A stretch of 64,000 nucleotides of DNA from Nannochloropsis salina CCMP1776 (taxonomy: Eukaryota > Sar > Eustigmatophyceae > Eustigmatales > Monodopsidaceae). The stretch lies in the NCBI GenBank assembly GCA_004565275.1, contig SDOX01000007.1, positions 570,115-634,114 on the forward strand, in the 5' to 3' direction. The notes under the pieces were generated by a model that was given only the letters and a program-made list of their open reading frames with translations, had not been told where the DNA came from and searched no databases. Positions 1,308 to 64,000 of this stretch are shown one piece after another; position 1 is the stretch's first letter, and every line of letters starts with the position of its first letter. The translations under genes and the position numbers were made by a program.

Positions 1308-2471
1308 CTACTGCCTTGCTCCGCTGTCCATGGCTTTTACAGCCTTCACTATCAAACAAGCCACCCCCTCCCTCCTCACCTCAACCTCCCCAAATTCACT
1401 CGACACAAACAAGCGCCGCAACTCATCCAACTGGAAAAACCGAAACGTATTACTCTGAAGCCGTTCGTTCACTTCAAACGTTGACGCGTACATCCTCCCA
1501 CCTGGTTTGAGTACCCGGAGGCATTCCCGCAGGCTTTCTTCCAACCGAGGCCAGCAATGCAAGGCCGCCCCCGCGTGGATAGCATCAACACTCGACGTCT
1601 GAAACGGTTGTCGGGACGCGTCCGCTCGCACCAGCTCCGGCACCGGTAACTTCTCTTCCAGGAAACGCCGCCGAGTCTCTCGCAGCATGGACTCGCTGAA
1701 ATCGGCCGCGATGACCCGTTTCCATTTCCGAGACCGGCACAGGCGCCGGGCCATAAGGCCGCTCCCACAACTCAGATCGATCACAGTGCCCCGACCACTC
1801 CTTCGCTGCTGCTCACCTTGACGCTCGGATTCAGATCCCGCATCGAATAGCGGGGCGAAGAAAGCCTCCAGATCTCTGAATTCCTTGTCGATGCCAGGAA
1901 AGCCCGCGGTCTTGAAGTTGTCCCGCCATCCTCGCTCGTACAGGAAGGATGTGAGAGGGGAACGAAACAACTCTTGGGTGACAATGGCCGAGGGAGAAAA
2001 GAAGGGCACAATCATTCGTTCTTCTGCGGGAACAAGATCCATGTATACCTCGTTCGCAGGATATTTGTTGCCGCGAGTTGTGACCATATTCACCACTTGA
2101 CCAAACGGGCCGGCGAGGCGGACCACTCGGCGTACGGGCTTCAATGTCAGCGGGCAGGCCAAAACGTGCTCCATAGCGTCATAATTTTCCGCTCTTGAAG
2201 ATGTCGTCGCTTCGTTCCCCAGACTGCGATACAGTGCATCTTTAAGGACCCCGCGCTGCTCATGTGCGTCGATTGGACTGGCCTCTGCTGGGTTTGAAGG
2301 CGGCGTAGGGGCAATCGACACAGATGGAGAAGGTGCGGAAAAACACACACAAGAGCCTGCGTGGCCTGTCGCTGGGGTGATTGGCGGGACAAACCCTTGC
2401 GTGGTGGTCACCGCGAATGCAGCCGCAGCACATAGGCCGAAAGGTTGCAGTGAAATATGTCCGTGAGGCAT
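1308..2471 (-). CDS. Plastid-type SAM-dependent methyltransferase (At1g78140-like)
   Basis: A single-exon 387-residue protein. The first ~50 residues are hydrophobic then Ser/Pro/Ala-rich with TTTQGFVPP, resembling a heterokont signal plus transit peptide. A short segment starting LACPLTLKPVRR follows, then FRSPLTSFLYERGWR, which is diagnostic of the plant family of uncharacterised chloroplast methyltransferases such as At1g78140/At2g41040. The class I Rossmann core is intact: motif I VIDLSCGSGLMARRL, the acidic loop AADFSESML, and a post-motif ending LRVLKPGGRMYAS. SAM binding is therefore expected; the methyl acceptor is unknown. Plastid (plastoglobule or thylakoid) location is inferred from the family and the N-terminus. 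The start is the ATG before the hydrophobic leader. The gene converges on the upstream Pro-rich gene with ~150 bp between stops. Confidence 0.85.
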   Translation of the reverse strand: MPHGHISLQPFGLCAAAAFAVTTTQGFVPPITPATGHAGSCVCFSAPSPSVSIAPTPPSNPAEASPIDAHEQRGVLKDALYRSLGNEATTSSRAENYDAMEHVLACPLTLKPVRRVVRLAGPFGQVVNMVTTRGNKYPANEVYMDLVPAEERMIVPFFSPSAIVTQELFRSPLTSFLYERGWRDNFKTAGFPGIDKEFRDLEAFFAPLFDAGSESERQGEQQRRSGRGTVIDLSCGSGLMARRLCRSRKWKRVIAADFSESMLRETRRRFLEEKLPVPELVRADASRQPFQTSSVDAIHAGAALHCWPRLEESLRECLRVLKPGGRMYASTFEVNERLQSNTFRFFQLDELRRLFVSSEFGEVEVRREGVACLIVKAVKAMDSGARQ

Positions 2472-17223: not shown

Positions 17224-18660
17224 TCATGCTTTATCAGCTTTGCAATCTATGTACAGACATGCCTGGCAACCTCCCAAATCGCTAGAACCTCGAATTTCCA
17301 GCCGGGCCCCTATCCTTTCCACTTCCTTGCGAATCTCGCCGTAGACAGAGGGCCGTGCTGCTCCCGGCGCCCGGGGCCCATTGTCTTGGACGATGAACAC
17401 CACGGAGGATACCGACCGTGGACTAGCCTCCAGAAACCTCACTTCAAGCGTCACCGTAGGTTTCTCGTTTTCCAAGGCGTGCGCCATGGCTGACTCGACC
17501 AGGCCGCCAACCGCTTCCTGCAGGCGGGCCATATCCACCACCGGCACACGCACTGGGAGGGTCTCTCCCATCAAAAAACCGAAATTGATACCGTCGCGGC
17601 TGCTTACCAACTGCGCTGCACTCACAATAGGAGCAAGAATTTCACGCAGTTCGAAATGTCTGGGTTCAGGGTCTACCATTCGGCCATCCCTCTTCACCAG
17701 TCCTCCTCCTCGTCCCTCCCCACCATTCACCTCCTCCCCTTCCTCCTCCCCTTTCTCCGCCCCTTCCTCCGCCATCAGGGGGGGTAGAACTCCCTTCTGC
17801 CGGCACACCACTGCCTCTGCTGTTTCATGCCCTTCTGGATACGCCATCAGTATATCCATCAACCGGTCACTTTGTATCAGCACGTTCTTTGCCAGCTCCA
17901 AGCTCAGACCCTCGGGGTCGCGCTCGAGACGGCGCATCAACAACTTGCTAAAAGTGCGCAATGCCCCCAATGGCGTTCGAACCGCCCGCAAAAACCAATC
18001 CAACCTGGCGTTGCCAGGATCTTTGTCGAGATCTGGGCGGGAGCCTAGCTTTAAGGAAGCTATCAGGCACTTGATGCAAGCGTCCAGGAGTCGATATTGA
18101 GCCGGCGGCTGCTTGCTCTCAGGCATGAAGGTCAGAACCAGCCAGACTCCACCTTCGGCCTCGAGTTGCTCCTCCTCCTGGAGAGGGAGGAGAAGTGTGG
18201 AGGGTATGGGATCCATCGTCCGCACGCGCTCGCAGGACTCGGTGATTGTAACATTGAAATCCTCCCGGCACCGGCCTCGGCTCAAGAGGGCACCGAATTC
18301 CACTTCATTTATCAGCACCTCGAAACCTGGGCTTGAAATAGAATGATTGGGCTCAGGAATGTAGAGGCGACAACTGGTCAATTCTGGAAAAAGTGATTTC
18401 ATGAGACTTGAGTAGGCTCTGATTAGGTCTGGTATAGCGTCGGCTTTGGCAGCCTTCAATTTAGTTTCAAAGGGCTTTCGACTATCTTTAGACAGGAAAA
18501 AAGCATTCCGAGTCGGAGGTTGTATGACGGTGGTGAACGCACCACATGCTTGATAACGCGAGGGTGCGTTCAAGGGAAACCATGCATCCACGCCCCGTCT
18601 TGTTATAAATATGGTACCGAGCATTGCCCCAGCGCTTGCGAGCTTTTTCGCACCTTGCAT
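17224..18660 (-). CDS. Chloroplast-sensor-kinase-like protein (CSK), non-canonical H-box
   Basis: A 478-residue protein from the first true ATG; the open frame continues upstream without ATG. The N-terminus (MQGAKKLASAG..TRRGVDAWFPLN) resembles a signal peptide cut before an aromatic residue plus a transit peptide. A GAF-like domain spans about 70-185. A dimerisation helix pair follows, with RAVRTPLGALRTFSKLL, closely resembling chloroplast sensor kinase and cyanobacterial Hik2. At the position of the phosphoacceptor His in the usual HELRTPL there is Arg225. The ATPase part retains a G1-like VQDNGP, but the Asn box is degenerate, and a Glu/Gly-rich linker (~310-330) separates it. CSK links plastoquinone redox state to plastid gene expression in plants. 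A pseudokinase or a non-His acceptor is possible. Plastid location is inferred. Confidence 0.72.
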   Translation of the reverse strand: MQGAKKLASAGAMLGTIFITRRGVDAWFPLNAPSRYQACGAFTTVIQPPTRNAFFLSKDSRKPFETKLKAAKADAIPDLIRAYSSLMKSLFPELTSCRLYIPEPNHSISSPGFEVLINEVEFGALLSRGRCREDFNVTITESCERVRTMDPIPSTLLLPLQEEEQLEAEGGVWLVLTFMPESKQPPAQYRLLDACIKCLIASLKLGSRPDLDKDPGNARLDWFLRAVRTPLGALRTFSKLLMRRLERDPEGLSLELAKNVLIQSDRLMDILMAYPEGHETAEAVVCRQKGVLPPLMAEEGAEKGEEEGEEVNGGEGRGGGLVKRDGRMVDPEPRHFELREILAPIVSAAQLVSSRDGINFGFLMGETLPVRVPVVDMARLQEAVGGLVESAMAHALENEKPTVTLEVRFLEASPRSVSSVVFIVQDNGPRAPGAARPSVYGEIRKEVERIGARLEIRGSSDLGGCQACLYIDCKADKA

Positions 18661-19359
18661 GGCATGCGAAACCCACACAAGGTACCTTTCCGCGTTTCGA
18701 AGCCAATCCAATCCCTATAGTGTTCTGGAGAAAAGATGAGAAATTACTCGCCGGGTCGCCCTATCTTTAAGTGTTTCCCCACCTACCTTGATTTGGAGTA
18801 ACGGGGATGGGGGAGGTTACTGTCTATCCGCTCAAATTCAAACAGAAAATGATTATTAACTCAACGCTCCAGGCTGTCCGCGATCATATAGAGCAGCACA
18901 CACTAAGTTTTCATTTTAAATTTATTCGTGTGTTCGCTCGCTCATGGTGGCTGGCATATGATGTCGATCGAAAGACTTGCAAAGAACCTCATCACCGTGC
19001 AAGTCACCTTCCCTGCCTTCTGCTCTCCGTCACCTCTGCCGCAAGACGCGCGCAAATACTATCAGGCCTCACTTCCTCTTCACTCTACCCGAGACTAGCA
19101 TTCTCGCCACCTCATCGAGCTTTCGTAGCGAGGGCATTCGCAGCGAACACCTTCGTAAACCACTGTCGCGCCATGCACCTTTACCAAAAACATGCATGAG
19201 CAACAAATCATCTCAATCCTTGCCTAAACGCTACAACATCGAACAGACAATTCCTCCTGATTTGCTGTCCAACACTATTTTTCAGTTCCATTCCTTCAAT
19301 CTCTTGTACTCCCCTCCGCGTAAACCGCGCGAGTGCGTGCGACTGCCTCTCTCCCTGTC
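18661..19359. other. Intergenic region between CSK-like and bHLH genes
   Basis: About 0.7 kb holding the CSK-like promoter and the bHLH 3' end. Short open frames on the plus strand have non-coding composition. No RNA gene or repeat recognised. Confidence 0.4.
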
Positions 19360-21945: not shown

Positions 21946-23837
21946 TCATATCGATGGATCCTGGCGCTGCCTAGCGATTTTATAATCGAAAAAATCGAAG
22001 TGCCTATCAACAAAATGCAGAAGCAAAGACGAGACAGTGGATAACTCGTCAGGCATGGCTTCCCGGTAATGAGTGTGCCGTCGACCCAAGAAAACCAAGG
22101 CATCTCCGTTTTTGATATCGCATTGGATGGCGGATCCCTCTGAAGGTTTTGGTCGCCAACTGCTGTGTTCCGGGAGAGTTTCGGTCGTGTCGACGTAAAT
22201 TGGCCACTGAGAGTGCGCCTGGTCGCTGTAAATTTGCGCGCTCACGGTGACCTATGAGAAAAGTTAAAATCCATGCACGTGAGCGAAATTCATATATCAA
22301 CACGCCAGAAAAGAGATAAAGGATCGTGTGACATAATGGCGGCGCTCATAGCACGTACACGGCAATACTCGCTTTTAGTCTGTGCCCTAGGAGCTCGAAC
22401 ACTCACCTCGTTGTCTTCCCGGTCTGTGTGTGGTTTCAATTGAGGGACTACCCCATTCCGTCGCTCATAATGACACAAAAAAGAGTAGGCATGCTTCAGA
22501 GGACGTTTCGCAATCGTGTTCAACAGCCCGGTCAGGCGATGATTTAAAAAATTACCGACGCGGTCCTGGTACGAAGTAGCTCGGCCCAAGTGTTGATCAT
22601 ACTCCACGTCCCCTCCCTGAGCTCTGGCTTGATAATGCCGTTCCAATACAGCCAGTTCGAAGGGATGCAAGAATTCTCGCAAGATGACAAAGTCTTGTGC
22701 TGCGAAGAGGTCCGCCGCGCGCGCCACTCCGGCGGAATGGAGCCCCCAGCCAATATTGGCGCCATGCCGGTCCTTGTCGCTCTGCGCGGCATCCGACCAC
22801 ACGTCCCCGGGCCAGCTAGCCGCAGGCGACAGTGCATGCTGCCGCGTGTAGAGCTCGCGGAAAACGAAGAGGTCCGCCAAGGCGGGCCAGTAGGCGGGGC
22901 GTTCCGCCGGGATCCCCGCGCTGAGTTTGTAGTGAGGGGGCTGGTAGCTTGTGTCAAAGAGCGATTCGTGGCATCCCTTTGGATCGTATTCGCGAGCCAG
23001 GGCAAAAAACATTCCTGCCTTGTCCGTCCCTTGTGCCTCCTGCACGTAGCCCTGCAGCAAGGCCAAGAGGGACTTCTCCTCCGGGTCGAGGTCTACTTGG
23101 GCCTGGAGTACCCCCACGAGTCTGAAGACTTCGTCGAAGTTGCCCTCATGTAGCCTCAGCAAAGCCAACACGGTCGTGGCATTCACATAATCTCGCTCGA
23201 TGATCTCGAGTTCGCCTGAGTTGGAATGAGCCAATACGTTTGCTGATTGCTCGATCTGACTGAGAGCTTCGGAGAAATCGGGGCTTGTGGGCCCCGGGTC
23301 ATGGCGTAAGGCGGAAAGAGGAGGCTGTCCTCGCGTCGCTATAAGCTCTTGCAACGCCAAAGCAATGCCTTTCAGCAAGTGGGCCCGGCCCGTGGCCATA
23401 CGACCCTCCCAGGAGGACTCCGTCTCTGTCTGGGGAGCTGCCCCCTCGCCTACTCCGAATTCCTCCCGACCCATGGGCGACACTGATCTATCATCCGCTT
23501 GTACGGGCTGTGACATATTTTCTTGCTCTTTTTCGTGATAAAAATCCGGTGAATCTTCTTCGACCTTCAGTCCTCGCTCGTTTTCCGATAGCCGGGCCCT
23601 CGCAGAGAAGAAGCTTACGTTAGCTCCAGAGGTACGACTGGCCAGTCCAACTACCACAACAAATAAGCCCCACGCAAAACAAACTATCATGGCCCACTTT
23701 AGCGCCACGGGTAACGTTTGATTGCGTCGCTTTCTGTGCTTGTCATCTTCGTCGCATTCGAAAGCCCGATGACTAAAGCTACGCAACCCGGCCTCAGGAT
23801 CATAATACCCCCTTTGTGGACAGTCCGTCGCGTACAT
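21946..23837 (-). CDS. Type II membrane protein with putative 2OG-Fe(II) oxygenase domain
   Basis: Exons on the minus strand are 23837-22407 and 22251-21946, joined in phase at a GTGAGT donor, giving 578 residues. A single transmembrane segment lies at about residues 44-66 after a basic cytosolic tail, so the bulk is predicted lumenal. A middle region with helical repeats (~200-300) looks like a scaffold. The C-terminal part has the arrangement of a prolyl-4-hydroxylase-type double-stranded beta-helix: His470-x-Asp472 in KPHTDREDN right at the exon junction, and a distal His536/His538 with Arg540 in RRHTHYREAMP. These would bind Fe(II) and 2-oxoglutarate. A role in hydroxylating secreted proteins or wall components is inference. 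The substrate is unknown. Confidence 0.6.
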
Positions 23838-45893: not shown

Positions 45894-47964
45894 ATGCTTG
45901 TACTCTCCTCAATCGCGTGCACGGCCTCCGCCCGCGCCACGAGTGGCACTCGACGTGCCGCCCTCAACGCATTTTTACGCCCCACACTATCATCGTATCT
46001 CCCGTCAAGCCTTTCCAGCACCAGCCGGGCCCTGAGTATCAGCCGCTCGGTCTCCCGGACATCGCAACGTTTCCACGGTCCCCCTCCAAGCTTCGCCCCC
46101 CGTTCGCCCTCCCATCTCGGCGCGGCGGCCACAAGCACCGAGGTCAGGCCCACACAGGCCGTTAAACTCCCCAGCAATGACCAGTCCCCGAATCTGCTTC
46201 GCATTCGCCACACGTCTGCCCACGTGATGGCCATGGCCGTGCAGCGCCTCTTCCCCTCTGTGCAAGTGACGATCGGTCCCTGGATCGAGAACGGGTTTTA
46301 CTACGACTTCGACACGGGGGACACAAAATTTACGGAGGAGGATTTGAGCAAAATCAAAAAAGAAATGGAGCGTATCATCAAGAAACGGCTCCCGCTTCGC
46401 CGGGAGGAAGTGACGCGGGAGGAAGCCAGGAAACGGATCGAGGCGATGCAGGAGCCGTACAAGTTGGAGATCTTGGACGGGATCAAGGTGAAGGGGCAGA
46501 AAGGAAAGGCGACAGTGGAATGAGGGGGAAGGCGTCAGTTTGGAGGCAAGGGGACGGATGGGATGACAGGGACCTTTGTCTTTGAAAGGGGTTCCTCACC
46601 TGTCACGGTGGACCCACTGTCTTCCCTCTCCCCCCCCTCCCCCTCCCCTCCCTCGTTCCCTAGACCGAGCCCATCACCATCTACCACATCGGGGACGAAT
46701 GGTGGGATCTCTGCGCCGGGCCTCACGTGGAGTCGACCGGAGACCTTCCCTCCAACGCCATCAAGCTCGAGTCCCTGGCGGGCGCCTACTGGCGGGGCGA
46801 CGAAAAGCGGGCCATGCTCACCCGGATCTACGGCACCGCGTGGGAGAGCAAGGAGCAGCTCAAGGAATACCAGCGGCTGATGGAGGAGGCGAAGAAGCGG
46901 GACCACCGGGTCTTGGGGAGGAAGCTGGATCTGTTCTCCATTCAGGAGGACGCGGGGGGGGGGTTGGTGTTCTGGCACCCCAAGGGGGCGACCGTGCGGA
47001 AGATTGTGGAGGACTTCTGGAAAGACGAGCACGAGCGACGTGAGTACCAGCTTCTCTACACCCCGCACATGGCGAACCTGCAGCTTTGGAAGACGAGCGG
47101 GCACTTTGACTTCTACAAGGAGGGCATGTTCGACCAGATGGAGGTGGAGAACGAGGCCTTTCAGATCCGCCCCATGAACTGCCCCTTCCACTGCTTGATA
47201 TTCAAAGACACGTTGCGGAGTTACCGGGAGCTACCGATACGGTGGGCGGAGCTGGGGACTGTGTACAGGTGCGAAGGGAGGGAGGGCGGGAGGACGGGAG
47301 GAAAGGAGGGCGGGAGGAAGGGAGGGGAGGAAGGTCCGCCCCGGGACACTTCCTCACTTTGAGTGACCTGGAGCATCACCTGGCGCACCGCTTTCTCTTT
47401 CGCTCCCTGATCCCTGCCCCGACTTTGTGTAGGTACGAGCGCTCCGGCACCCTGCACGGTCTGATGCGGGTGCGAGGGTTCACGCAGGATGATGCCCACA
47501 TCTTCTGCCTCCCTTCCCAGCTCCAAGACGAGATCCGCGGCGTGCTGGACCTGGTGGAGTCCATCCTCTCCAAGTTTGGCTTCGTCGACTACGAGGTGAT
47601 GCTCAGCACCCGGCCCGAGAAGAGCGTGGGCAGCGAGGAGATATGGCAGGCGGCGACGGAGGCCCTGGTGGGAGCCTTGGAGCGGAAGGGGTGGGGATAC
47701 GAGGTGGACGAGGGGGGGGGGGCGTTTTATGGGCCGAAGATCGACATCAAGATCCGAGACGCGATAGGTGGGGAGGGTGGGGTGTAACCAGCGGGAGCAA
47801 GGGGAGGGGCGGGCAATCCGGTGTCAGCCGTGTAGTAAGGGCTCCCTCCCTCCTTCCCTCCTTCCCTCCTCACCTCATTTTCTCCTTTTCTCCTTCTTTC
47901 CTTCATTCCTTCCCTCCCTTTCTCCCCTACAGGTCGGCTCTGGCAGTGCTCCACCATCCAGTGT

Positions 47965-47998
<34 letters not shown>

Positions 47999-49059
47999 AC
48001 GTGGCAGACGACGGCTCCAAGGTACGGTCTTCACAATATCGCGTCCGGCCTTGCAGCATCCATGCGCCTGGCTGGGTCTCAGGGCTGGCGTCAGAACCCT
48101 CTCTCTGTTCCTTTCCTTCATCTGAAGGCTCTGTCCGGGAGGACTGCTTTCCCACCCGTTCCTCCCTCCGTCCCTCCTGGACTCTTCACAAGTCATCTCT
48201 CCTTCCTCGCTCGCCTCTCCTTTTCTTGCCTTCCGCTGCGAAAGACGTCACCCGTTCTTTTTCTCCCTCTTTCCCCATTGGCTTCCCTTTGGATTTTAGA
48301 AACGCCCCATCATGGTGCATCGGGCCATTTTCGGGTCGATTGAGCGGTTTTTCGGCATTTTGGTCGAAAACACGGCCGGGGATTTCCCTTTGTGGATGAG
48401 TCCGGTTCAAATGCGACTCTTGCCGGTTACGGACAAGGTAAGAAATAAAAGAATATTTTAATATTTTAACAAAGGGAGAGATACTTATAGAGGAAAGATT
48501 GACAAGGCGGCTCCACTTGAGGGAGGGGCGATGGCTGACTATATCAACCTTTTCTCGGCATCTTTTTCTTTCCCTAGGCCATGGATCACGCCCAAGATAT
48601 CAAGAAACGCCTTTCCAGCGCTGGTTTTCGGGTGGAGGTGGATCCGGGCTCGGAACGGCTTGGGAAACAGATCCGTAACGCGGAACAAGCACGCATTCCG
48701 GTCATGGGCATCATCGGCGCCAAGGTACCGTCTTGTTGGGTGGTCGAGGGGGGGAAGGAGCGATGGCAATGCGATGAATGGTGGTGCATTAGAAGGAATT
48801 TGCTCGTGTACACATATATACACGATACTCATAGAGCTCACCGAATGGTTATTTATCACTGTTGTTTACGCAGGAGGTGGAGAGTGGGGGGGTGACCGTC
48901 CGTACTCGATTAGGGGGACAACTCGGGCTTTATGGAGTGGAGGAATTGGCATCCGGGCTCGTTTCAGCGGTGGAGAGCACCAAAGAACTACACGAGGTTC
49001 TTGAAAAGCGCGATGAGGAAGTGAAGAAGGAGAAGGAACAGGAGAAAGAGGGGGTTTGA
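45894..49059 (+). CDS. Organellar-type threonyl-tRNA synthetase (seven exons)
   Basis: Proposed exons are 45894-46487, 46664-47268, 47433-47767, 47933-48021, 48300-48437, 48578-48724 and 48874-49059, all in phase; 697 residues. It charges tRNA-Thr. The first ~90 residues are Ser/Arg/Ala-rich, a plastid and/or mitochondrial presequence. The editing domain is present ([11 protein letters not shown] and [10 protein letters not shown], giving the HxxxH and CxxxH zinc/editing residues). There is no room for a TGS domain, as in cyanobacterial and organellar ThrRS. Motif 2 spans junction 2 (VYR|YERSG), and motif 3 is in exon 5 ([14 protein letters not shown]). The anticodon-binding domain fills exons 5-7. 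The first donor (GTGAAG) was chosen because it yields the family spacing [16 protein letters not shown]. The frame stays open to 45789. Confidence 0.93.
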
Positions 49060-60860: not shown

Positions 60861-61274
60861 TCAAGTCGATGCCGGCGCACCTCCTACTTCTGTCATGGGG
60901 TTCGGGGCGGGCGAACCGGTCACCTGCGTCCGCGACTCTGTCTTCTTCTTGCCGGCGCTGCTGATCAGGACGGAGGAAGGGATGACCCCCCGCGTCAAGG
61001 CCAAGGTTTTGGCGTTAAGACCAGGAGGCTTGCGTTTCAGCACCCTGTTGGTCGGTCCCTGGTGAAAAGCAAACTTGGAGGCAGGGACGGGCGTGGAGGA
61101 TGCCGTCTCCGCCTCCGTCTGAGGTGCATGGCGGGCGTGAGAAGCCTCGTCCGGGCCCTGCGCCCCAAACCCGAGTATGGCCATTAAATCTCCTGGCGGC
61201 TGAGTCGGACTTTCCCGAGGCGCTGACAAGTTGGAGGGGTGGTGTCCCTGTTGTTGTCGTTGTCGTTGTTGTGG

Positions 61275-61305
<31 letters not shown>

Positions 61306-61307
61306 GG

Positions 61308-61339
<32 letters not shown>

Positions 61340-63524
61340 GCACTTGTCGGGGCGGCGGTTGCGCTGGGTATGGAAAATGTTGCTCTTGGAACGGGTGGGA
61401 ACGCAGTGCTTGAGGACGTGGCTGCGAAGACCGATGATGCTGAGAGGATGGCGGGAGTGAAAGTGGTTGCTGGGGACCGGGAGGAGAGGTGACAGGCGAA
61501 GGAGGCATGCGAGAAGGGGAAGGCCGGGCCGGATGGCCACCCGCCTGTGGTTTGAACAGCATGGCGCTCAAATCAACGGCAGAGACAGGGGCTGACCGCG
61601 CTCCATTCTGTGCCGGAGGCGGCGGCGGGGCTTGCGAAGGGCGACTTTGAGGGCGGGTCACGGGCAGCGGCAGCGTCGAATCTCGTCCGAAGGGGGTCAG
61701 TCCAGGTGGGGGCAGGGAAGGGAAAGGAATCCCTTGACGATATGGGCCGGGTGGCGTCGGCCCTTTCCCCGGACCCACCGGTCCTTGCCCCGGTGCGCTA
61801 GGCGCCTGGCGTAGAGAAGCTTCCATGCCCGAGGGAGGCCTGGCCAAGGGAGTTCCAGGGGGGGAATGCGAGCGCGCCGGTGGGGGTACTTGTGAGGTGG
61901 GGAAAGAGGAAGCGGTTGCTACCGCCGCGCCCGCGCCAGGAGGCTTGGTCACCGAGGACATGTGGCCGGTCTGTGGGCCCTGAGAGTCCTTTGCTCGAGC
62001 TGGGCCAGCTCCCTCCGGGTAGGTTACGGGCGAGGACGACGCCAGGTCTCGGTACAGGTCAATGGTGGAGAACCCCGCCCCCGGGGCGGCGAAGGAGAAG
62101 AGGCTGGTGGGGAAGGCCCCCCCCGCGGTCGCCATGGAGGGTGGAGCGTCGGACAAGAAGGAAGGGTGCGTGCCGGTGTCCAAGCGGGCTACCTGCCCGC
62201 CGGGGGGGGGGGGCGGGCCCAGGAGGGAGGCGAGATCGATGTCGAGGTCCTGCAGGGGCCAGGGGCGCGCGGGCGGGGAGGCCCGAGCCTTAATACGCCC
62301 CGGGATGCATGGGCCCGGCGGAGAGCGGGAAAGGCCCGGGGGACTGCCCCGTGATTTTTCCTCCTGTGCCACACCGGCAGAGGCTTCCTGCGCCCACGCC
62401 GGTGCCTCTTCCTCCTCCGCCTCCGCCGGTGCCGCCCTCCCCGACCGCCCCGGCGGCTTGCGGACACTTGCCTGGATCCCCTGCGACCGCAAGTACTTGG
62501 CACGCTCGGCTTCAAACGCCGCCGCGAGCCCTTCGTCAGGGACAAAAGCCTTGTCCAAACCCGACATGCCCGTTCCCTCCCCCCCACCTCCCCCCAGGCC
62601 CCCGGCCGAGGGCATCTCCCAGTAGTCGTCCGTAGGGTTCTCCCATAGATCCTCCTCCTGCTGGGCCTGTCCCCTTTTCCGCTCAGAAGAGGCCTGCCCG
62701 CCCCGGTGCCCATCCCCAGTTGTGGGTCCTCCCTCGAGCCCGTCCCTCCTCCTTCCTCCCCCCCTTCCTCCCCCCCTTCCTCGCTCACCCTCCCGGTCCC
62801 ACCCCCCCCGCCCAGGACCGCCCTCTCGTGGCATCCTACCCTCCCGCTGCGAGAATTGATGCGAATAAGCCCCGCGACTCGACGGCCTCTCCCCCTCCCG
62901 ATACCCTCGCAGACGCTCCACTGGCATGTCCGAGCCCAGCAGGGCATAATCCACCCTCCCTTTCGCGTCCCTCTCAGAACCCTGCCCTGGTTTGGAAGCC
63001 ACAGACGCCGGCTGGTACCGAGGTGGCACGTCGGGTTGTCGACGCACCGCCTGGTCCCCGGCATGAGGCACGCCGGTGCGGTCGCGCGAGGAGATCACCA
63101 GGGGGGGCAATCCGGACGGCCGGGACGCAAGAGGCTTCACTCTCTCTTTCAGCGCCTCCAGCTCCTCCACCGAGTAGCATATCTTGCCAAAACGACCCTT
63201 TGGGGGCGCTCGCTTCTCCTGTCCGCCGTGTCCGGACCGGAGTCGACTAGGCGAGGCCTCAACTGGGGGTTGCAAACTGCCCGCACGTTCATCGTCCAGC
63301 ATGGCCTTCCCACCCTCCTCACGGGCTTGTATTCCCCCTTCTTTGCGTCCTCCGCCCAATTTGAGCATAGCCATGAGTTGCTGGGACGCTTTCAAGTCCG
63401 TAGAGGCCAGGGAAAGGGAAGGAGAAGCCACCCGGCTCGAAGAGTCCTCCTGCCATGACGCAGGCGCCTGGTCACTTCCTGATGTTGCCCCCTCCCCGGC
63501 CACGCCGCGCACCGCCCTCGGCAT
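60861..63524 (-). CDS. Large Gln/Pro-rich, probably disordered protein with a YSVEEL motif
   Basis: An 887-residue open frame from ATG 63524. A CAG acceptor-like site lies four bases upstream, so a 5' exon or 5' UTR intron is likely. Most of the protein is disordered and rich in Pro, Gln, Gly, Ser. Conserved-looking islands are: KGRFGKICYSVEELEALK near residue 115, WENPTDDYWEMPSAG near 300, LAAAFEAERAKYLRSQGIQ near 345, and a basic C-terminus (NRVLKRKPPGLNAKTLAL). The YSVEEL island resembles the Y-x4-L-phi helix of eIF4E-binding proteins and 4E-transporter, but the last position here is Glu, so this is a weak lead. Two Gln runs (~10 and 11) come from a TTG/GTT repeat. Long Pro runs precede them. 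Function unknown; RNA-granule or transcription scaffold are guesses. Confidence 0.6.
61251..61340 (-). repeat. CAA/TTG trinucleotide repeat encoding poly-Gln
   Basis: About 90 bp of near-perfect GTT units on the plus strand (AAC/CAA on the sense strand), interrupted by GTC/GTG. It gives long Gln runs with single Pro or Arg interruptions in the large disordered protein. Confidence 0.9.
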
Positions 63525-64000
63525 CACCTGGGGAATTTATCTACTGCATAACCTGCCTGGTCCACAGAAGTAGAGGCAAAGGAAGGGGTGGGGTCGTGGA
63601 ACGTGTAGTGAGACGTGACAGGCGTACATGAAAGAAGTGTAGATAGAAGACGCTTGACAGCGCATGGCAGTGACGAGGGATAATTCGCGACGTGGATATT
63701 TGAACTATACGCATGCGAGTGGGCGTCATCACCTCACACAAGGCGTTTCTCTTTTCAATTGTATCACTGCAACCTGCTGTCGCTGCTAGAACGCAGAAAA
63801 GGAAAAACAAGCTGGAGGCGTACTACGTAGTACGTGAGAAGGCTCCGCGAGTCTAAAATGCAAAACCTGTGTGGACACGACCGCTACGCATTCTATCCCC
63901 CTGAGCCGATCATCGCGGCGTCTACCAAACATGAAAGCGCGTTACATGGCCTTTGGGTGCACTCTTTCGCGTGACGCTCCTCGATGTTCCTTTGACAGAA
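63525..64000. other. Upstream region of the Gln/Pro-rich gene, window end
   Basis: About 0.5 kb. A minus-strand frame (63541-63810) has poor composition. Probably promoter and 5' UTR; nothing else supportable. Confidence 0.35.

Follow-up and report, generated by a model that had tools for sequence, protein, structure and literature searches.

CSK and Hik2 have been proposed as a link of photosynthetic electron flow to chloroplast gene expression. The phosphoacceptor of CSKs has been reported to be His in red algae and diatoms (PMC2677595), and Tyr or Gln in green algae and Glu in moss and higher plants (PMC2677595, PMC5054060). In the pattern published so far, the green lineage lost His along with the response regulator and CSKs stayed canonical in red algae and diatoms (PMC2677595, PMC6949291), and the loss of the regulator in the green lineage has been proposed to accompany the loss of His (PMC6949291). 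On the sensing side, both plant CSK and Phaeodactylum CSK are reported to bind a 3Fe-4S cluster, and replacement of Cys19 in Synechocystis Hik2 lowers iron and sulfide binding (PMC6949291). The G1 and G2 boxes of Arabidopsis CSK are altered, yet the protein still binds TNP-ATP with a Kd of about 1 uM, and its recombinant form showed no autophosphorylation in vitro (PMC5054060), while CSK taken from Arabidopsis plants in far-red light was phosphorylated on Ser188 (PMC6949291). In plant CSK, G2 is also described as retaining its third Gly and the ATP lid as having Hik2-like secondary structure, and the G2 box is reportedly not fully conserved in some algal CSKs (PMC5054060). A 2021 iron-sulfur survey stated that weak conservation prevented a decision on CSK orthologues in other algae (PMC8003979), and the titles and abstract openings of the papers listed in our literature searches mention neither a eustigmatophyte CSK nor Arg at the phosphoacceptor site. 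Here, we describe a 478-aa protein with Arg at that site, encoded in a stretch of DNA of 64,000 nucleotides that was analysed as a whole (the window) and for which an original prediction had named a CSK/Hik2-type sensor kinase.

Coding Frame and Genomic Setting

The ORF of the putative CSK/Hik2-type pseudo-histidine-kinase occupies positions 17224..18660 of the minus strand and comprises 478 codons plus the stop, from ATG to TGA. In 20 simulated windows of 64 kb, matched to the real one in dinucleotide content, no open frame exceeded 346 codons. With 11 other ORFs of the window as the training set, the frame ranks first of six by codon usage; its codon score (0.075) falls below those of 9 of the 11 training ORFs, and its GC3 is 0.58 versus 0.69-0.84 in the six neighbouring genes tabulated. 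Since an out-of-frame ATG (18663-18665, minus strand) lies 5 bases upstream of the ATG of the ORF and opens a 20-codon overlapping frame, the exact start is uncertain. The surroundings are those of a eukaryotic nuclear genome by gene content, the neighbours in the window including 40S ribosomal protein S2, topoisomerase II, CDC37, Dcc1, an ERCC4-domain protein, a P-type ATPase and ATP sulfurylase. The host is probably an alga.

Several other features of the window were recorded. Two ORFs at 21946-23837 (minus strand) appear by eye to be parts of one dioxygenase-like gene, perhaps split by an intron, with HTD in the larger and a possible second His in the smaller; the larger piece had no Pfam match. 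A piece of a class II tRNA synthetase lies at 46727-48343 (plus strand), with tRNA-synt_2b in 46727-47362, followed by ORFs in other frames whose Gly-Arg-Glu-Gly runs stem from purine-rich repeats, perhaps introns, and similar runs are present at other places in the window. As well, a low-complexity ORF of 888 aa with polyglutamine is found at 60861-63527 (minus strand), for which a Pfam search gave no match and whose repeat also yields poly-Asn and poly-Val frames near 61184-61540.

Kinship with Hik2 and CSK

Judged by its sequence, the 478-aa protein is a member of the CSK/Hik2 family. General domain models give little on this point, as Pfam HisKA (15.1 bits) and HATPase_c (15.2 bits, cut-off 26.4) both stayed below cut-off, and NCBIfam returned no match. 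The DHp (dimerisation) region, residues 218-279 (17824..18009, minus strand), reads RAVRTPLGALRTFSKLLMRRL...SDRL, carries the Hik2-type signature R.PL.ALRTF.KLL...SDRL and scored 46.8 bits against a Hik2 DHp profile. On the same profile, 34 Hik2 proteins, which also helped to build it, scored 85-120 bits, and 30 other cyanobacterial HisKA loci, a non-random set returned for the strongest HisKA matches in four genomes, scored at most 16.3 bits.

The tblastn ranking points in the same direction. In each of five cyanobacterial genomes reached through Hik2 loci, the top match was Hik2 (E 3.6e-7 to 4.5e-6), and the second match, which existed in four of the five, had E 0.37 or weaker. A search over 194 cyanobacterial genomes gave a match at E <= 0.1 in 95 and none at that threshold in 99; the best 30 places from this draw, made into loci, were all Hik2 by profile (30/30), and, as read from the table, the best place lay outside the DHp helix in 8 of the 95 matching genomes. 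The protein found no relative among plasmids (tblastn) or PDB sequences, nor did viral contigs contain one, whether the query was the full-length protein or its DHp alone.

Full-length Hik2 profiles gave 46.4 bits (first profile) and 57.8 bits (second) for the 478-aa protein, and four non-Hik2 ORFs reached 57-68 bits on the first, no worse than the protein itself, because its CA domain is heavily altered. The family call therefore depends on the DHp control and the tblastn ranking, both of which agree with the kinship first proposed. The comparison set behind the following sections consists of 113 Hik2 ORFs (108 distinct sequences), for which 80 cyanobacterial loci were gathered with a fragment of the Hik2 DHp containing His-Gln, and further loci by similarity to the 478-aa protein; alignment A1 (60 members) sets the 478-aa protein against 59 diverse Hik2.

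Phosphoacceptor Site

The translation around the phosphoacceptor site reads ...DWFLRAVRTPLGALRTFSKLLMRRL..., and Arg225, encoded by CGG (17986..17988, minus strand), stands at the place of the phosphoacceptor His. In the alignment with cyanobacterial Hik2 that had been proposed as a check, this column is His in 113/113 ORFs, and the next, Ala226 in the 478-aa protein, is Gln in 113/113; part of the set was gathered with a query containing His-Gln, and the 34 ORFs gathered by similarity to the 478-aa protein agree. The replacement of His by Arg, the central claim of the original prediction, is therefore upheld. The rest of the DHp is better preserved, with 14 of the 21 positions that are near-invariant in Hik2 (at least 90 percent among the 59 of A1) kept.

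An artefact, in which a sequencing error or a wrong gene model masks His and normal boxes, might be considered, as the data consist of a single sequence and the putative start codon has the out-of-frame ATG just upstream. However, CGG is two bases from either His codon, and therefore a single base error cannot explain Arg225, while Ala226, the changes in the N box and the short G1-G2 stretch described below are independent of Arg225 and lie in one continuous frame. We regard an artefact as hardly credible.

ATP-Binding Domain

The DHp is followed by a linker (residues 280-335; 17656..17823, minus strand) that contains a Glu/Gly-rich low-complexity run and has pLDDT below 50 over most of its length, and by a CA domain of the HATPase type (residues 336-478; 17227..17655, minus strand), in which AlphaFold2 and the fold search indicate a kept fold and the catalytic boxes are mostly lost. 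The AlphaFold2 model, built from residues 55-478 together with the 59 Hik2, has a mean pLDDT of 67.5, with values up to 92 in the DHp helices and of 78-96 by block in the CA domain, except for its last block (50). The DHp and CA fold of histidine kinases was recovered in this model. At E <= 0.001, Foldseek matched it to 144 PDB chains; most of the best 50 of these are histidine kinases or phytochromes, with ZraS, HK853 and RetS among the first rows. The CA domain of PhoQ (3cgz_C) aligns with a TMt of 0.79, and CA domains alone with 0.74-0.79, while the whole-model TMq is just 0.26-0.34 because the model has loose parts. The CA fold is thus predicted to survive while its catalytic boxes do not.

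In alignment A1, the N box (residues 380-395; 17476..17523, minus strand) is degenerate, with Gly386 and Ser390 in place of two Asn, Ala393 in place of Lys and His394 in place of Tyr, each original residue being present in 59/59 Hik2. The G1 box, DNGPR (residues 426-430; 17371..17385, minus strand), retains Asp426 and Gly428, and its second Gly is replaced by Arg430. Both a degenerate N box and a remaining DxG-like G1 box had been foreseen, and both are borne out by these residues. The expected site of the ATP lid and the G2 box, placed by length comparison at residues 432-441 (17338..17367, minus strand), is much reduced: the stretch from G1 to G2 is exactly 23 residues in 112 of the 113 Hik2 and about 6 in the 478-aa protein, and the last strand motif follows the G1 Asp at 37 residues, compared with 57-84 in the 83 of 113 Hik2 that could be measured by pattern. 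GxGLG is absent under either alignment. We read SVYG as sitting at the G2 position, since the model places a helix (441-449) and two strands next, as after G2. The MAFFT alignment A1 differs in that it keeps the lid columns and puts the gap at G2; the position of the deletion is accordingly alignment-dependent, with the elements of the model and the lengths favouring the lid and A1 favouring G2. We also considered whether an intron or a frameshift had been overlooked at either the His or the lid, and rejected this because the frame is single and continuous and the change at the lid is a loss.

Asp426 and Gly428 of G1 are all that is left of the canonical histidine kinase boxes (H, N, G1, F/lid and G2). 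The original prediction was right on His and the N box and understated the extent of the loss, as it missed the Gln beside His, the lid stretch and the G2 box. Overall, 30 of the 80 near-invariant Hik2 positions are kept, of which 11 of 39 belong to the loosely aligned CA domain (the split per domain was counted by hand).

With so many catalytic positions lost together, it may be asked whether the gene is decaying under relaxed constraint and has no present signalling role, and the low GC3 and codon score would also suit a weakly constrained gene. The 478 stop-free codons, the first rank of the coding frame among six, and the better conservation of the DHp than of the CA domain speak against decay, which seems very unlikely to us.

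Another possibility is that, like plant CSK, the protein has swapped His phosphotransfer for an ATP-dependent Ser/Thr kinase activity. Arabidopsis CSK, with its His lost and G1 and G2 altered, binds TNP-ATP (PMC5054060) and is phosphorylated on Ser188 (PMC6949291), and Asp426 and Gly428 of G1 are still present here. However, plant CSK is reported to keep the third G2 Gly and a Hik2-like lid (PMC5054060), whereas the 478-aa protein lacks both Asn of the N box, the lid stretch and the G2 box, so that such an activity appears improbable.

Sensor Region and N Terminus

Residues 1-58 (18487..18660, minus strand) might form a bipartite plastid presequence by hydropathy and composition. Within the N terminus, hydrophobicity is highest over about residues 7-20, and the stretch 27-58 contains three Lys/Arg and lacks Asp and Glu. 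The motif VDA/WFP, which we take to resemble the ASAFAP-type cleavage motif of ochrophytes, could mark a cleavage site, and the protein is possibly plastid-targeted. Elsewhere in the window, a methyltransferase of the UbiE/Methyltransf_11 type (1308-2471, minus strand) has the N terminus ...TTTQG/FVPP..., which presumably resembles the ochrophyte plastid presequence motif and would lend slight support to a red secondary plastid in the host.

The N-terminal sensor region (residues 72-217 in the AlphaFold2 model; 18010..18447, minus strand) shows elements in a GAF-like order, namely a helix (73-90), strands (94-100, 155-159 and 173-178) and a helix (186-207), with pLDDT of 35-86 by block of ten and low in the middle. 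In a fold search with this region, the best row overall had E 0.16, and named GAF domains occupied rows 2, 3, 5 and 7 with E 0.22 or worse. Residues 55-218 scored no better than -3.8 bits against the Hik2 profile and so do not match it, and Pfam GAF was detected in 54 of the 60 members of A1 and not in the 478-aa protein. MAFFT alignments of the N-terminal region vary with settings and were not relied on; in the loose alignment, 5 of 20 near-invariant Hik2 N-terminal positions are kept.

A Cys in the first helix is present in 54/59 Hik2, and it probably corresponds to the Fe-S ligand Cys19 of Synechocystis Hik2, because one Hik2 locus (L098) has a second Cys 16 residues on, matching Cys19/Cys35. 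The list of Cys in the 478-aa protein contains none between residues 40 and 96, and therefore, however the first helix is aligned, its ligand is absent.

A Probable Pseudokinase Descended from a Sensor Kinase

It is unlikely, from the residues lost, that the 478-aa protein runs the CSK/Hik2 reaction. With Arg225 as the acceptor and Ala226 in place of its neighbouring Gln, no phospho-His would form at the usual site. The loss of the N box, the ATP lid stretch and the G2 box makes ATP binding of the usual kind unlikely, and plastoquinone sensing via the CSK Fe-S cluster has probably been lost because the first-helix Cys is missing. Since Arabidopsis CSK binds TNP-ATP despite its altered boxes, sequence decay alone is no proof of lost nucleotide binding. 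With somewhat better than even confidence, we consider the protein to be a nuclear descendant of CSK/Hik2 without kinase chemistry, most likely acting in the plastid as a pseudokinase scaffold or allosteric partner. Of the two outcomes offered at the outset, signalling by another residue is weakened, as the ATP site is dismantled too, and a pseudokinase is supported.

As the DHp core and a folded CA domain are kept, the protein is probably dimeric. Such a pseudokinase might alter the activity of a bound partner by conformation, the candidates being the transcription machinery, a response regulator or a further kinase. With regard to response regulators, stramenopile plastid genomes are reported to be without ycf26 and ycf27, raphidophytes excepted (PMC9235467), and a survey of 72 species, six Nannochloropsis among them, recorded plastid ycf29 only from red algae and cryptomonads (PMC4810238). 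If the host is a non-raphidophyte ochrophyte, its plastid genome should therefore be without ycf26 and ycf27 and, by the survey, without ycf29; nuclear copies of these regulators may exist, as in diatoms (PMC2677595). Resting on one sequence, the Arg225 protein is a good lead.

Comparison with Known Systems

The cyanobacterial Hik2 (Synechocystis slr1147) is alike in its DHp motif, RTPLGALRTFSKLLMRRL against RNPLTALRTFGKLLLKRL, and in the order of sensor region, DHp and CA domain. Hik2 ORFs differ in having the His-Gln, N, G1, lid and G2 boxes and the N-terminal Cys (54/59).

CSKs of Phaeodactylum, Thalassiosira and Cyanidioschyzon are alike in being nuclear and of a red-plastid line, if the host belongs there. 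They are unlike in that CSKs of diatoms and red algae reportedly bear His, the comparison with these and with plant CSKs being made from published statements. Their retention of His (PMC2677595) is consistent with the 478-aa protein being a divergent paralogue that modulates a His-bearing CSK elsewhere in the genome, for example as an inactive heterodimer partner. Contacts of one kinase with another have precedents in DivL-CckA (PMC4211667, PMC9491836) and RetS-GacS (PMC12189002), and we hold such a paralogue to be possible but doubtful. RetS of Pseudomonas aeruginosa is itself among the fold matches, and it is reported to affect GacS through complex formation and to have further activities (PMC12189002). 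It is unlike the 478-aa protein in being a bacterial hybrid kinase, and the identity in the fold match is 12-13 percent.

Plant and green-algal CSKs share with the 478-aa protein a nuclear gene, a replaced phosphoacceptor His and altered CA boxes, but carry Glu, Tyr or Gln where this protein has Arg. The loss of His in plant CSK had been cited as precedent in the original prediction, which was correct for the Glu of plants and incomplete as to the Tyr or Gln of green algae; the replacement of His was thus already known more than once. The combination of Arg with the loss of the N box, the lid stretch, G2 and the first-helix Cys appears, from the sequence in hand, to exceed the CSK descriptions encountered in the published sources.

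Returning to the pseudokinase that we favour, a functional parallel might be DivL of the alphaproteobacteria, which likewise has a histidine kinase fold with a replaced acceptor, repurposed for binding. Its acceptor is Tyr, or Ala in Magnetospirillum, and it signals by binding DivK~P (PMC4211667); a pseudokinase derived from ChrS by laboratory evolution provides a second precedent (PMC9491836). By analogy, the kept DHp helix could give a dimer able to bind partners, as DivL binds DivK~P. DivL is unlike the 478-aa protein in that its N, G1, F and G2 boxes are kept, and no special sequence kinship between the two is claimed. A more far-reaching reading is that the light-balance sensor kinase common among oxygenic phototrophs has, in a red-plastid alga, been stripped of its redox ligand, phosphoacceptor and ATP pocket and works purely by conformation and contact as a DivL of the plastid, which we put forward tentatively and think rather unlikely. 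For a eustigmatophyte host, this reading would agree with a report on Nannochloropsis, in which state transitions went undetected and the plastoquinone pool stayed partly oxidised in bright light (PMC5389811).

Set against the published pattern of CSKs, the combination of Arg and a dismantled ATP site in a CSK of the red-plastid line would mean a separate and deeper loss than that of the green lineage. Such a CSK would allow the coupling of response-regulator loss to the loss of His chemistry to be tested, and would show what a CSK does once it is no longer a kinase.
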